IMG/VR virus record: IMGVR_UViG_3300017917_002096
Coordinates: 1 to 52,105 of that record
Origin: a virus
Reading direction: 5' to 3' (one strand)
Length of the DNA: 52,105 nucleotides
The notes beneath the pieces were generated by a model. It was not told the origin of the DNA, ran no database searches, and was given only the letters and a program-made list of their open reading frames with translations. Positions 6,673 to 11,517 of this stretch are shown here, one piece after another. Position 1 is the first letter of the stretch. Every line of letters starts with the position of its first letter. Made by a program: the position numbers and the translations under genes.

Positions 6673-7090
6673 AGAATATCAAAAATATGTAGAGTCATAT
6701 AATTGGAAGAAAAAGGCAAAGACTTTTTCTGAAACACAGCATTTCTGTTCTGTATGTAAGATATTTGGTAAAGATCATAAGATCAGACATATTAGATTAG
6801 ATAATCTTGGTAATGAAACAGAGAATGATATTGTAGTTCTTTGTAAAGATTGTTATAAAACAATATTGAATCAATTGATGGAACATGAAGGATTTCATGG
6901 TTTCTTACATGGGTTAAAGGTCTTAAAGGGATTATTTAGAAAATTTGATGGTCATCGAGGATTATCTTATGAGGCTGCCAGTAGTTATCGTTCAGATAAG
7001 CTAGATCAGGCTATTGAAAAGTATAAAAAAGACCCAAATCCTCATTTGAAGAATATTTTGATCGCACAGGTACTTAAATTACCTGTATAG
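6659..7090 (+). CDS. Degenerate HNH-like zinc protein
   Basis: The 143-residue protein has CSVC (30-33), RHIRLDNLGNE (43-53) and LCKDC (61-65). This layout follows phage HNH endonucleases (CxxC, HH, LGNE, LCxxCH). However, the usual HH pair is RH here and the final His is Tyr, so catalysis is probably lost. It starts inside the end of the upstream gene without its own ribosome site, so it is translationally coupled. Small HNH proteins often accompany terminases and can assist packaging; whether this one does is inference. The C-terminal half is basic and helical and unassigned. Confidence 0.55.
   Translation: MSNYKEYQKYVESYNWKKKAKTFSETQHFCSVCKIFGKDHKIRHIRLDNLGNETENDIVVLCKDCYKTILNQLMEHEGFHGFLHGLKVLKGLFRKFDGHRGLSYEAASSYRSDKLDQAIEKYKKDPNPHLKNILIAQVLKLPV
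7066..7086 (+). repeat. Perfect inverted repeat at the end of the HNH-like gene
   Basis: ACAGGTA (7066-7072) and TACCTGT (7080-7086) are perfect complements around CTTAAAT. The repeat sits on the last codons of the gene, just before the structured RNA. It could be an RNA processing stem or an operator. Confidence 0.45.
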
Positions 7091-7741
7091 CTCTTTTACA
7101 TATTTCTTAGTGACAGAACAAGACTCGCAAGGTCTATAGTATTGTAAATATTGTTGAAAAACAGTATTTTCAGGTTCTGCTCATCAAATGGTATAAAGCT
7201 GAAATAGCCGAGGTCGTACAACCTTGAGTGACGTAAGAACAGAACAAATCGACCCAAGACATGGATTGCTGTATTCTGTTGGGAGTATCCAATCTCTCCT
7301 AGCATTAAGCATCTTGAAGACGTTCTTGATGTGCTAGTGGCTGAATAATACTGCTTGCATGAGTAGTTGTAAGTATTCCATAATCTTACCTAAGAAATTA
7401 TATTTTCGCTCTTTTACAATTTAAGTCGTTAAACAAAGCCTCATGTGCAACCTATTGGCAATAGTCCTTGTACATGACAAGCAACCTTGGATAGAAGTAC
7501 GAAAGTACATGATAGCACAGTTTGACTAACTGGAGTCCCAAGGGGCCGTTTATCTGCGTCAAGCATGTCATAGAAAATAGAGATATGTTCTCGTTCTATG
7601 CAAATAAAGGCGAGGATATGAGAAGGTAAGCAACCCTAACAGACTGGGCCCTATAACCCTCATACTCCTTTAAAAAATCAGCCGTGTGTGTGGCTGTTGA
7701 CAGCGAAGGGATAAAACAAGATGCTGTTCGAGATTTTTAAG
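7091..7741 (+). ncRNA. Large ornate structured non-coding RNA, family unresolved
   Basis: This 650-nt stretch has no supported frame and a more balanced base composition than other spacers. Hand folding gives many perfect helices: a long-range helix 7102-7110/7390-7398 closing a 5' domain; 7114-7119/7174-7179; a 9-bp stem 7147-7155/7160-7168 capped by GAAA; 7299-7304/7332-7337 with inner 7310-7313/7328-7331. In the 3' part are 7441-7446/7472-7477 with 7452-7456/7460-7464; 7497-7500/7505-7508 capped by GAAA; 7569-7575/7594-7600; 7605-7610/7667-7672 with 7617-7622/7659-7664; and 7679-7683/7692-7696. Size, GNRA loops and phage setting recall the GOLLD and ROOL classes of large phage RNAs, but I cannot confirm membership. 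The strand follows the neighbouring genes. Confidence 0.65.
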
Positions 7742-7749
7742 TTACATAC

Positions 7750-7776
7750 TTAGTTATATTATATATATCTAACTAA
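7750..7776 (+). repeat. AT-rich inverted repeat after the RNA
   Basis: TTAGTTA (7750-7756) and TAACTAA (7770-7776) are perfect complements with AT-only sequence between them. It may end the upstream RNA, but it lacks a clean T-run. Confidence 0.35.
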
Positions 7777-7822
7777 TATAATTATATAATAATATATAAT
7801 TTTATAGTTATATGGCCATTCT

Positions 7823-7864
7823 CTGCCTTCAAGCATGTAGGCGGTTTTTCAGACTTGAAGGCAG
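7823..7864 (+). repeat. 11-bp perfect inverted repeat ahead of the HTH gene
   Basis: CTGCCTTCAAG (7823-7833) pairs with CTTGAAGGCAG (7854-7864) around a 20-nt loop that contains GGCGGTTTTT. It is GC-richer than its flanks. It could be a processing stem, an operator for the following HTH protein or a remnant of a mobile element. Confidence 0.5.
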
Positions 7865-7907
7865 GAAGTCTTTGTATTTTCTTTGGAAATTAACTAGGAG
7901 AAATTGG

Positions 7908-8114
7908 ATGACATTCACAGATGATGAAAAGAGACAATTGATCGATAAGATACAGATATGGAGATTTGATAATAGAAAGCCAGTTAAATTCATTTCAGAG
8001 AAACTGGGTGTCTCTATTACTAATGTTAGCAGATGGGAAAGAGGTACACAATTACCAACTGTTAAACATTGTTATTATATTACAAAATTTTTAAAAGAGA
8101 ATAATGTAGCTTAA
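7908..8114 (+). CDS. Small XRE-like helix-turn-helix protein
   Basis: The longer frame from 7812 runs through the inverted repeat. The ATG at 7908 has AGGAG upstream and is preferred. The 68-residue product has KFISEKLGVSITNVSRWERGTQLP (about residues 26-49), a clear XRE-type helix-turn-helix ending in the WERG signature. It is small and lacks a second domain. Sitting between the structured RNA and the large terminase, it may be a transcription regulator or a DNA-recognition part of the packaging machine; position alone cannot decide. Confidence 0.65.
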   Translation: MTFTDDEKRQLIDKIQIWRFDNRKPVKFISEKLGVSITNVSRWERGTQLPTVKHCYYITKFLKENNVA

Positions 8115-8139: not shown

Positions 8140-9729
8140 ATGTTGACAGAGAGGATCACTGATGAAGAACTCGAATTTATTGAGCTATTTTATAATCCAA
8201 TAGCTCTTACTGAGTGTGTCTTTTCTGATCTTGACAATATTGTTAGATTTGATGATGAATTCGCAAATGTTCGTTTGGGACAATATCCAATGTTCTCATA
8301 CGAATATTTAATTGATACAAGCAATCCTGCATTATCAAAAAAAGAGAATTTTAAATTAAAAGAGGGTGCAGGTAATATTTTTTGTTTTGGTGGTCGTAGA
8401 TTTGGAAAGACCATGATAGTAGAGCAAGTAGATATATTGCTCTCTATGTTATTGTTAGAGGGTGAGCATGTTGGATTTAGTTCTTTTGATGCCTTACATA
8501 TTCGAGGTATCATAGAAAAAATAATACAAGTACTTCGTTCTCATTCTTTTTTTAAATTGTTAGATGCTCAGATAAATAGAAGCCCCAATTATAGGATCAG
8601 TTTATTGTCTGGTTATTTATTTGAGAGCATAAACATGAATTTATCTGGGCAAACACCTGGTAGTGGTTTCTTTCAAAAACATTTACATAGATTGTATGTT
8701 GAAGAAGCAAGTTACGAAAATGAAGAAGTTTATAGTAAGCGTATAGATGCAGTTTCAGAAGATGGCTGCGTTTATAGACTTGCTGGTATGACAAATTTTA
8801 CAAAATATTCTCCTGCTGGTAAAACCTTCTTTGATTTTGCTAAACAATCCCAAGTATGTAATTTACCTCAATATGTTAATCCTAAGTGGGATATCAAAGA
8901 GAAAGAAAAGGCAATTAAAGAATATGGTGGTGAGCAGTCAGCGGGATATCGAGTTTTCGTTAAGGGAGAAGTAGTTGATGAAGGCATTGCGGTTTTTGAT
9001 ATGGAGAGAACTAGAAAGCAATACCTTTTTGATAAGCAAGTAAAAGTATTTGAAATAAATAAAGACAACTTTTCTCTCTTTAAAGATCTACTTGTTATTG
9101 AAAGACCCAATAATGCTTCTTCTGTTTATGTTTGTGCAGATATTGGAGAGACAGCCCCGACAGAAGTTGTTATTATTTATGAGGTCAACGGTGTTTATTA
9201 TTATACCTATGAGATAGTTGCTTATAGATTAGATGATAAACAGCAGTATGAAATGATAAGATATATTGCAGAAACAGTTAGAGCTAATGTTATTTCTCTT
9301 GATACAACAGATGGGACCGGTAGAGCAATATTTAGAATGTTATCCGAAGTTTTTCCTAAAGAGAACTGTGTTTACTGTTCTTTTAATGAAAAAATAGGAG
9401 TTGATTTTGAAAGAGATGATAAGGGTCGTATCAAGTTCGATATGGGAAAGCCGATTTTGAAAGAAGAATATGTTTCTGAGTGGTCCGTTCGAAGATTAAA
9501 AATGTTGTTCTATGAAAGTAAGTTATTTGTTCCTTCAGATCATAAATTAGATAAACAATTAAATTCTGTTATTGCAACAACGAACGGAATGAGAACAGTA
9601 TATAGCGTTGTTTCTGAAGAAGATCACCTATTCAGTGCTTTTAGAGTATTTGCTATTGCTCAATTCAATACTGAATTTATAGGCTTGCAACCGGTTAATA
9701 GAAAGAAGTTTAGTAAACTAGGAGCTTAA
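8140..9729 (+). CDS. terL: Terminase large subunit
   Basis: The packaging motor ATPase/nuclease of 529 residues has normal length for the family. The Walker A motif FGGRRFGKT lies at about 83-91 and the Walker B-like LYVEEA at 185-190. The C-terminal RNase H-like nuclease shows D334 (VCADIGE), D388 and D391 (SLDTTDGTG) and a third acidic site in SEEDH (492-496). It would cut concatemeric DNA and pump it through the portal. It starts 25 bp after the HTH gene with no clear ribosome site, and the portal follows after 6 bp. The call is secure; the packaging mode (cos or headful) cannot be read from this. Confidence 0.93.
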   Translation: MLTERITDEELEFIELFYNPIALTECVFSDLDNIVRFDDEFANVRLGQYPMFSYEYLIDTSNPALSKKENFKLKEGAGNIFCFGGRRFGKTMIVEQVDILLSMLLLEGEHVGFSSFDALHIRGIIEKIIQVLRSHSFFKLLDAQINRSPNYRISLLSGYLFESINMNLSGQTPGSGFFQKHLHRLYVEEASYENEEVYSKRIDAVSEDGCVYRLAGMTNFTKYSPAGKTFFDFAKQSQVCNLPQYVNPKWDIKEKEKAIKEYGGEQSAGYRVFVKGEVVDEGIAVFDMERTRKQYLFDKQVKVFEINKDNFSLFKDLLVIERPNNASSVYVCADIGETAPTEVVIIYEVNGVYYYTYEIVAYRLDDKQQYEMIRYIAETVRANVISLDTTDGTGRAIFRMLSEVFPKENCVYCSFNEKIGVDFERDDKGRIKFDMGKPILKEEYVSEWSVRRLKMLFYESKLFVPSDHKLDKQLNSVIATTNGMRTVYSVVSEEDHLFSAFRVFAIAQFNTEFIGLQPVNRKKFSKLGA

Positions 9730-9735
9730 ATTTAA

Positions 9736-11517
9736 ATGAATACGCCCCAAAAAGATAAAGAGCTTACAAAGAAGTCTATAGACAAGGCAGTATTTGTAAG
9801 AGCAATGGCAGAAGTTATGATGAATTTGACTTCTGATCAAATAAAAATACCAAAAGAATATCGCAATCAAGTTCTTTCAGTGAAAGAATTATTGAAAAGT
9901 GATACCTCTGGTCTTGTTAATAGTTTATTAGACTTTGCTATTTCTTGTGCTTTGGTTAACTATAGTGTTGAGACAAATAATCGTAGTTTGACCGAGCTTT
10001 TTAATGATTGGCTAAATAGTATAAACGACGATCTTAGAGGGCAGATCCCAACAGGAATAAATGCTTTAGCTAAAGAATATTTTCGTGAGAGGTGGAAGGG
10101 CAGTTCTTTCATTATTTTGAGGAGCATTTGGGAGAACAAGAACGGATTCATTGTTCCGACAAAACTTTGGTTCGTTAATGGAGAAGATATTGTTATTGAT
10201 GATAAATCTCAAGATACCTTTGTTATAGGAAAAGAGAAATATTTACTTCAGATCAACAGGAAGGAACAGAAGCAGATCCCAGTTGGTCGTTCAGAAAAGA
10301 TATTTGTTCAGAAGCCATACGAGTCATGGGGAACAAGCTATCCAATTCCTTTTATTATTCGTAGGGGTATATTTAAGAATCTAAAATTGTTAGATATTCT
10401 TGCCACTAAAGGCGAGTATATCATTGGCAAGGCTTTAGAATATCTTTTGTTACTTAAAAAAGGCAGTGAAAATCTTGCCCTTGCCAATCAATCTGAATTT
10501 ATTTATAGTAGCGAAGATCTAAAAACTATAAAAACTCAATTAGAAGACCTTATTACGGATAGAAAGAATATTGCTGGAACTCCTACCTATGCAACAAATT
10601 TTGATACTGAAATAGAACATCTTATTCCAGAATATGAAAAAGCGTTGAAGCAAGAACTATACACTCCGATGGAAAGAAGGCTTCTTGCTGGTCTTGGTCT
10701 TATTGATGTTCTTCAGGGTATTGCTTCAACACGCAGAGAGTCTACTCTGAATCCTAGACCATTTATTGCTGAAGTATCTTCTGGTATTGAAGATTTTAAA
10801 ATGATACTTTCAGATATTCTAGAAACTATTATAGAACTTAATAAGGACAGTCATCCTAAATATATCGGTCAGATAAGAAAAGTTCATAGTACTCCAATTG
10901 CTCAGTTCATTACAGATGATATGCGAGACCAATTCAAGGATATGTATGATAGAGGAGTTATTTCTAAGCAGACATACGTTGAAGTTGTTGGAGATCTTGA
11001 TCTTGTTGTAGAAGTAGACAGAAGAAGCCTTGAAACCGAAGATATTAATAAGATAATGTATCCTCCGGTTATTAAAAATGAAGAAGTCGCTCCGAATGCC
11101 CCACTAGATAATGATGAGGTTCCGAAGCCAGATGGAGAAGATGATATCTCTGATGAAGAACAAGCTATTGTTGAAGTTGGAAAATATGATTCTATAGATG
11201 ACCTTCCAGACAATGTAAAAAATGTTTTACCTCGCTCTGCACAATCTATTTGGTTGGAAACCTTCAATAAAACCTATCCAAAAGGAGAAGATTATGCGAG
11301 AAAGGTCGCCTGGACTGTTGTAAAAAAATTATATAAAAAAGTTGGAGATAAGTGGCTCCCAAGAAAGAAAGTAAAAAGTTCTTTTGGTTCTGTTGAACTA
11401 TCTTCTGAAAACGTCGATTCTTTGTTAATAGATGTTGCTAAATTGCAAGACATTGAATTAAAACTTGCTCAACTTAAATTAACAAAGAAACTTCTTGCAG
11501 AGGAGGAGAAGCAATGA
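9736..11517 (+). CDS. Portal protein with C-terminal ChaB domain
   Basis: The 593-residue protein directly follows the large terminase, and its first roughly 450 residues fit a siphovirus portal (helical stem region, MERRLLAGLGLIDVLQG near 310-330). The portal ring is the DNA channel and the docking site of the terminase. A short acidic, Pro-rich linker leads to about residues 483-547, where YDSIDDLPDNVKNVLP, AQSIWLETFNKTY and ARKVAWTVVKKLYKK match the small ChaB family, a helical domain otherwise known as a stand-alone protein of unclear role. The last part is a Leu/Lys-rich helix. The next gene overlaps by 4 nt. Confidence 0.82.
   Translation: MNTPQKDKELTKKSIDKAVFVRAMAEVMMNLTSDQIKIPKEYRNQVLSVKELLKSDTSGLVNSLLDFAISCALVNYSVETNNRSLTELFNDWLNSINDDLRGQIPTGINALAKEYFRERWKGSSFIILRSIWENKNGFIVPTKLWFVNGEDIVIDDKSQDTFVIGKEKYLLQINRKEQKQIPVGRSEKIFVQKPYESWGTSYPIPFIIRRGIFKNLKLLDILATKGEYIIGKALEYLLLLKKGSENLALANQSEFIYSSEDLKTIKTQLEDLITDRKNIAGTPTYATNFDTEIEHLIPEYEKALKQELYTPMERRLLAGLGLIDVLQGIASTRRESTLNPRPFIAEVSSGIEDFKMILSDILETIIELNKDSHPKYIGQIRKVHSTPIAQFITDDMRDQFKDMYDRGVISKQTYVEVVGDLDLVVEVDRRSLETEDINKIMYPPVIKNEEVAPNAPLDNDEVPKPDGEDDISDEEQAIVEVGKYDSIDDLPDNVKNVLPRSAQSIWLETFNKTYPKGEDYARKVAWTVVKKLYKKVGDKWLPRKKVKSSFGSVELSSENVDSLLIDVAKLQDIELKLAQLKLTKKLLAEEEKQ

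Follow-up and report, generated by a model that had tools for sequence, protein, structure and literature searches.

A structured phage RNA family of about 300 nt related to manA, with two palindromic loops predicted to pair between copies

Natural assemblies consisting of RNA only have been established only recently, namely for OLE, ROOL and GOLLD. In OLE the switching of loop L9.3 between palindromes (GGCC to GAUC or AGCU) was used by Kretsch et al. to support the intermolecular pairing seen by cryo-EM, and palindrome switching in L21a of GOLLD likewise supports its intermolecular bridges (PMC12286853). A long non-coding RNA of L. salivarius which reaches the level of 16S rRNA, without a clear knockout phenotype (PMC5643018), has been identified as ROOL RNA (PMC12286853). 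The RNA that proved closest to the locus described here is manA (RF01745), which, being often found in possible 5' UTRs, was classed as a candidate riboswitch (PMC2864571).

The window, i.e. the whole stretch of DNA analysed, is a virus record of 52,105 nt (52 kb; G000). Its HNH-like gene ends at position 7090 and is separated by about 1,050 nt from the gene of the large terminase subunit (TerL, 8140-9729). The first ~820 nt of this interval, as far as a small HTH gene at 7908, are free of supported genes. An earlier note, made from the sequence of the window, had proposed that 7091-7741 lacks a supported frame, which was borne out for the plus strand by the list of open reading frames: the sole frame of at least 60 aa encodes 69 aa on the minus strand (7096-7305). 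A protein-coding reading was rejected, since frame support is absent and the relatives keep the RNA helices. The neighbouring HNH gene suggested a HEARO element, the model of which does not match. No tRNA gene was detected in the window itself.

Extent, relatives and structure of the RNA

The first relatives were detected by a sensitive search of phage records, in which a 59-nt match (window 7193-7251) was obtained in Lak megaphages and in a 735-kb phage. Further members were collected by pattern searches of viral and genome contigs with the words TGAGTGACGTAAGAA..CAAATC common to these sequences, and were checked by HMM and covariance model. The resulting family comprises 38 members including the window (37 relatives), originating from phage genomes, viral or prophage-like contigs and three MAGs (including one of Bacteroidales and one of Mycoplasmatota). 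Ten larger records with a match were searched whole and contain one copy each. The window is a long-branch member with a best identity of 60%. One pattern hit (L016) was rejected as a poor match to an apparently coding sequence, and two hits of the RNA model R1 in Bacteroidales genomes (L078 and L079, 23-27 bits), in which only the 5' helices align and the core motifs are missing, were left uncounted. No published description of this RNA family was found in the open-access literature.

The relatives are frequently located close to tRNA genes, which were detected within 1 kb of the RNA in 26 of the 38 members and within 2.5 kb in 28, on the same strand in all listed cases. In Lak-B1 and L015 tRNA genes lie within ~25 nt on both sides of the RNA, and L003 also has close tRNA genes on both sides. 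A tRNA-Pyl was called by ARAGORN ~1 kb downstream of the RNA in both L013 and L018, which are also alike in the sequence directly after it. The 735-kb phage (L002, 1750-2010) and a relative (L019) have in common a second structured-looking stretch downstream of the RNA, with a terminator-like hairpin at its end; according to blastn it is unrelated to the 3' half of the window's intergenic stretch.

The earlier note had described one two-domain RNA of ~650 nt. The structured RNA is real and corresponds to the 5' half only (7100-7400, RNA A in Table 1): conservation ends at 7400, where the closing stem P1 ends, and the conserved unit therefore measures ~300 nt. Its folding energy is below that of shuffled sequences (z -2.9, 0 of 100 shuffles as good), whereas the values for the whole 650 nt (z -1.8, 1 of 20 shuffles as good) and for 7409-7741 (z -1.3, 8 of 100) are unremarkable; the folding of the minus strand resembles that of shuffled sequence. 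Sequence searches with the 3' half (7408-7741) found no relatives. Taking together the end of conservation at P1 and the 3' half without relatives found, a single RNA of 650 nt was rejected. Other details of the earlier description stood. The 9-bp helix proposed between 7102-7110 and 7390-7398 is exact and represents P1, with two-sided changes in the relatives, and of the GAAA loops one is located at 7156-7159 (a C-UGAAAA-G loop in the relatives), with GAAA also in the 3' half.

The secondary structure, written by hand from the first alignments, consists of P1, P2/P2a, P3, the long-range P8a/P8b with an AA/GAAUA internal loop, P4, P5, P6, P7/P7b and P9. It was evaluated on a MAFFT alignment made without structure (A3), in which 89.6% of cells are paired, compared to 66.3% in shuffled alignments, and 57 of the 70 pairs have two-sided changes; none of 500 shuffles reached any of these measures, and sliding the partners lowers pairing to ~38-44%. 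In the alignment of all 38 sequences (A4), which was fitted to the model's own structure, 93.3% of cells are paired (~66% shuffled, 0 of 500 shuffles; ~36-42% with partners slid by 1-3 columns). In A4, 60 of the 70 pairs have two-sided changes. A further contact, of four pairs, emerged when all column pairs were scanned: it joins loop L2a (7127-7130) to 7266-7269, with 97-100% pairing in the three pairs that were scored, and could be formed within one chain or between chains.

Table 1. Positions of the RNA, its structural elements and flanking features in the window
Feature	Position	Strand	Basis
BoxA-like GCTCTTTTACA before RNA A	7090..7100	+	11-mer repeat
RNA A, conserved structured RNA closed by P1	7100..7400	+	R1 match of 237.5 bits (window sequence in the model's training set); covariation
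P1 5' strand (ATTTCTTAG)	7102..7110	+	9 Watson-Crick pairs with 7390-7398; two-sided changes in relatives
P2a hairpin	7121..7135	+	98.9% paired; loop 7127-7130 pairs with 7266-7269 in nearly all members
P3 hairpin, GAAA/UGAAAA-type loop	7150..7165	+	94.3% paired; two-sided changes in all 5 pairs
P8a/P8b 5' strand	7191..7201	+	pairs with 7338-7342 and 7348-7351; 99-100% paired, compensatory changes
P4 hairpin with palindromic loop L4	7209..7226	+	alignment
L4, GUAC in the window; predicted symmetric kissing loop	7216..7219	+	self-complementary in 38/38, four types, at least 11 switches on tree
P5 (7238-7244/7274-7280) and inner loop	7238..7280	+	99.6% paired, five pairs two-sided
P6 hairpin, counterpart of ROOL consensus GGUAAnCAAUCC	7281..7298	+	99.5% paired; ROOL consensus
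P7/P7b hairpin with palindromic loop L7b	7299..7337	+	97.8% and 96.2% paired
L7b, ACGU in the window; second predicted symmetric kissing loop	7320..7323	+	Watson-Crick palindrome in 32/38, 6 kinds, plus one G-U type
P8 3' strand, UGGCUGAAUAAUAC stretch, within ROOL-shared GUGGCUGAAUAAUA motif	7338..7351	+	motif also in ROOL of L061 and in ROOL consensus
P9 terminal hairpin, shared with manA	7369..7389	+	100% paired; manA alignments
P1 3' strand (CTAAGAAAT)	7390..7398	+	pairs with 7102-7110; same basis as P1 5' strand
BoxA-like, second identical copy, before the 3' half	7408..7418	+	11-mer repeat
RNA B, 3' half, possible second RNA	7419..7741	+	unsupported by comparison
Overlapping inverted repeats, possible transcript end	7823..7864	+	sequence; absent from terminator scan

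Kinship with manA and ROOL

In a scan against Rfam no family reached its threshold anywhere in the window, and at E<=10 only an irrelevant match was obtained in 6900-7950. The earlier note had considered a divergent member of GOLLD or ROOL. As judged by the Rfam models this did not hold: ROOL (RF03087, cut-off 99.1 bits) has no match at E<=10 in the window, GOLLD (RF02032, cut-off 150 bits) is not over its cut-off there, and the nearest family is manA. Neither did OLE, group I/II introns or other Rfam families identify a member in the window. Twenty records carrying the new RNA are free of matches to RF03087, a model which does match in G001 and G036, and no GOLLD match over the cut-off was detected in records carrying the new RNA.

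The closest known RNA is manA, an RNA of cyanophages and marine sequences. The RF01745 model matches the element at its own position in most of the tested member phages, with scores (best 28.7 bits) below the membership cut-off of 55.2 bits; it matches neither the window itself nor any of 8 ROOL records. Conversely, R1, which was built without any manA, detects the authentic manA of P-SSM4 with 34.1 bits (E 8e-11 locally, 1.5e-9 for the whole phage), and with filters off manA is its top hit in S-CREM1 and P-SSM2. Both RNAs have in common the closure by P1, the conserved 5' GUGACUGAAUAA with the P2 hairpin, the terminal P9 hairpin with its loop (GGUA..CAGGAAUCC) and the occurrence in phage genomes, with tRNA neighbours of manA in S-CREM1. 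However, manA measures ~190 nt compared to 300 nt, it lacks the GAGUGACGUAAGAA..CAAAUCG core of P4-P5 as aligned, and the matches are confined to the P1/P2/P9 frame. Furthermore, manA is annotated as cis-regulatory, whereas the relatives of the new RNA lie in tRNA arrays rather than in 5' UTRs of metabolic genes, and HTH and TerL genes follow it in the window. In S-CREM1 (OP535465, 10215-10429; L109) manA itself is located between tRNA-Leu and tRNA-Asn, with a wcaG RNA and other tRNAs nearby. Since it lies between these tRNA genes, a stand-alone RNA appears to suit manA better than the published riboswitch proposal.

The likeness to ROOL concerns the 3' module and rests on short motifs: in the consensus comparison both RNAs present the GGUAAnCAAUCC hairpin, a hairpin with a loop (that of L18 in ROOL), GUGgcuGAAUA, a last hairpin and P1. 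ROOL L18 is a symmetric kissing loop (PMC12286853), and L7b of the new RNA occupies the same place. The AA/GAAUA internal loop and the tRNA niche are shared as well. On the other hand, the ROOL model has 574 positions compared to 307, the central domain and linker differ, and the Rfam ROOL model does not match. A search for the module pattern at ROOL spacing, the spacing itself being taken from ROOL, returned 11 loci, all of them ROOL. R1 gives weak, partial hits at the expected place in ROOL loci; they count little, as most of these loci were fetched by the shared motif and the result is partly circular. We infer from these similarities a common descent of RNA A with ROOL.

Full R1 matches were absent from the viral ROOL records just as ROOL was absent from 20 records with the new RNA, both being small samples with many fragments; such mutual absence would be expected if both RNAs do the same job. 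One MAG (L061/G001) carries ROOL and the new RNA on separate contigs, and one phage contig (L072) contains both GOLLD (2351-2795, with a tRNA inside) and ROOL (10074-10664). With GOLLD (RF02032) and OLE the new RNA has in common palindrome switching in loops, which in the new RNA are predicted to be symmetric kissing loops, and GOLLD often occurs near tRNAs (PMC12286853), but both are larger RNAs with other folds, and neither gave an Rfam match over the cut-off here. Of the earlier likeness to GOLLD and ROOL there remain an ornate phage RNA with covarying helices, relatives that usually lie in tRNA arrays, a 3' module in common with ROOL and signs of self-association in the comparison, whereas Rfam membership, size and architecture do not fit.

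Palindromic loops and proposed self-association

Every member of the family carries one of the four self-complementary tetranucleotides GGCC, GUAC, GCGC or GGUC in L4 (38/38; the loop of L085, in which P4 is extended, was read by eye). A tree built without the P4 hairpin requires no fewer than 11 changes from one type to another. The rule also holds in all members found after it had been noticed (L075, L076, L083, L085, L086, L087, L089, L090 and L091). The adjacent central columns 7217/7218 covary perfectly with 100% pairing (rank 15 among all column pairs). No intramolecular partner of L4 was detected, every other position of the RNA being complementary to it in at most 40% of 30 members. 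L022 and L058 belong to the same supported clade and carry GUAC and GCGC, respectively, as if the specificity of assembly had switched.

A similar pattern was found in L7b, which is self-complementary in 33 of the 38 members (AAUU 12, AGCU 8, GAUC 6, CAUG 4, ACGU 1 in the window, GUAC 1 and the G-U type GGCU 1), compared to a mean of 14.7 and a maximum of 24 after column shuffling. Counting Watson-Crick palindromes only, 32 of 38 members contrast with a shuffled mean of 7.6 and a maximum of 17. The five misfits at the aligned register are GACG (three members), UGCU and UUAU. GACG tetraloops self-kiss in a retroviral RNA.

The comparison reveals a new conserved RNA family, its secondary structure, one contact between loops and two palindromic apical loops; the model of the family and that of manA detect each other. 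Since palindrome switching, as seen in L4 and L7b, is what has been published in support of symmetric kissing between molecules of OLE and GOLLD, a homo-oligomer is predicted. We regard it as likely that 7100-7400 encodes a stable non-coding phage RNA of ~300 nt, belonging to a family outside Rfam and related to manA, whose copies bind each other by symmetric kissing at both of these loops. With two distinct self-pairing faces, each chain could take part in a doubly bridged dimer or in a closed ring or cage of higher order, of the kind formed by ROOL, a homo-octamer, and GOLLD; symmetric kissing could also give dimers only. In infection the RNA would probably act as an abundant RNA particle with a scaffolding, storage or sequestering role.

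A monomeric structured RNA binding a protein or ligand, with the palindromic loops contacting a third partner or reflecting a local loop preference, seems unlikely, although it deserves the most weight among the alternatives. The kissing loops are read from sequence, the L2a-J5 contact could be intramolecular, and raiA, another large conserved RNA, is a monomer (PMC12286853). However, adjacent bases such as the central ones of L4 are unable to pair within one chain, L4 is self-complementary throughout the family in four types without a covarying partner in the same molecule, and L7b presents several different palindromes.

More improbable is a role in cis, with the RNA regulating the gene downstream of it or serving it as a riboswitch; this was the original proposal for manA, on account of its positions in possible 5' UTRs (PMC2864571). 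In the window the RNA is indeed followed by a small HTH gene and TerL, and the inverted repeats at 7823-7864 could serve as the switch, but no consistent downstream gene was seen among the relatives, which reside in tRNA arrays and are in part closely flanked on both sides (L003, L015), as is manA in S-CREM1 by its two tRNA genes.

The position in the packaging region, which the earlier note had pointed out, is probably incidental. A TerL search in phages returned no matches. R1 gave no match in three TerL relatives (L080-L082), in two of which (L080 and L081) TerL is directly adjoined by TerS or HNH; for these reasons the RNA looks inserted in the phage of the window and a role in packaging is unlikely. 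A pRNA-like component of the terminase motor is therefore very improbable: the RNA does lie between TerS/HNH and TerL, and pRNA, too, assembles into rings through pairing between loops, but synteny disfavours this reading, the RNA being absent at TerL in relatives and its own relatives lying elsewhere in tRNA arrays.

Returning to the self-associating RNA, it is conceivable, if rather doubtful at present, that manA, the new family and ROOL constitute one clan of phage tRNA-array RNAs which form closed RNA-only particles via self-complementary loops, manA being a small member rather than a riboswitch and the new family a cage of 300-nt chains. If so, the latter would be a natural RNA cage much smaller than ROOL or GOLLD, and an old riboswitch candidate would be tied to the same clan. 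The family adds a compact RNA that occurs in Lak megaphages and for which the comparison provides evidence of two self-pairing faces. Synthesis, mutation and imaging are far easier for an RNA of 300 nt than for ROOL, so that the role of phage RNA particles becomes testable, and palindrome-switching loops may provide a simple sequence signature for finding other RNA assemblies.

BoxA-like repeats, the 3' half and a possible transcript end

The 11-mer GCTCTTTTACA occurs in the window in exactly two copies, one directly before RNA A and one before the 3' half (7090-7100 and 7408-7418). BoxA, with the gamma-proteobacterial consensus GYTCTTTAANA, is located upstream of both 16S and 23S rRNA (PMC5725501), and the 11-mer has one mismatch to this consensus, which is that of gamma-proteobacteria. 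In 13 of the 38 members a BoxA-like word precedes P1 by no more than ~20 nt, where well under one is predicted from the background, the members not being independent; most members are without such a site. By analogy with rRNA, NusB/S10 recruited by the BoxA-like site may allow transcription of this long RNA, which is not translated, to run to completion, and P1 may be trimmed as in rRNA; both steps are proposed with less confidence than the self-association.

The 3' half may be a second RNA unit, since its own BoxA-like copy precedes it. A second copy of RNA A was rejected, as the resemblance is limited to a short P6-like AGGTAAGCAACCCT at 7624-7637 (4 bits). Further downstream the overlapping inverted repeats offer two options, either 7823-7828/7839-7844 (CTGCCT/AGGCGG) followed by TTTTT, or 7823-7833/7854-7864 (CTGCCTTCAAG/CTTGAAGGCAG). 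These are mutually exclusive and resemble a terminator/antiterminator pair upstream of the HTH gene.
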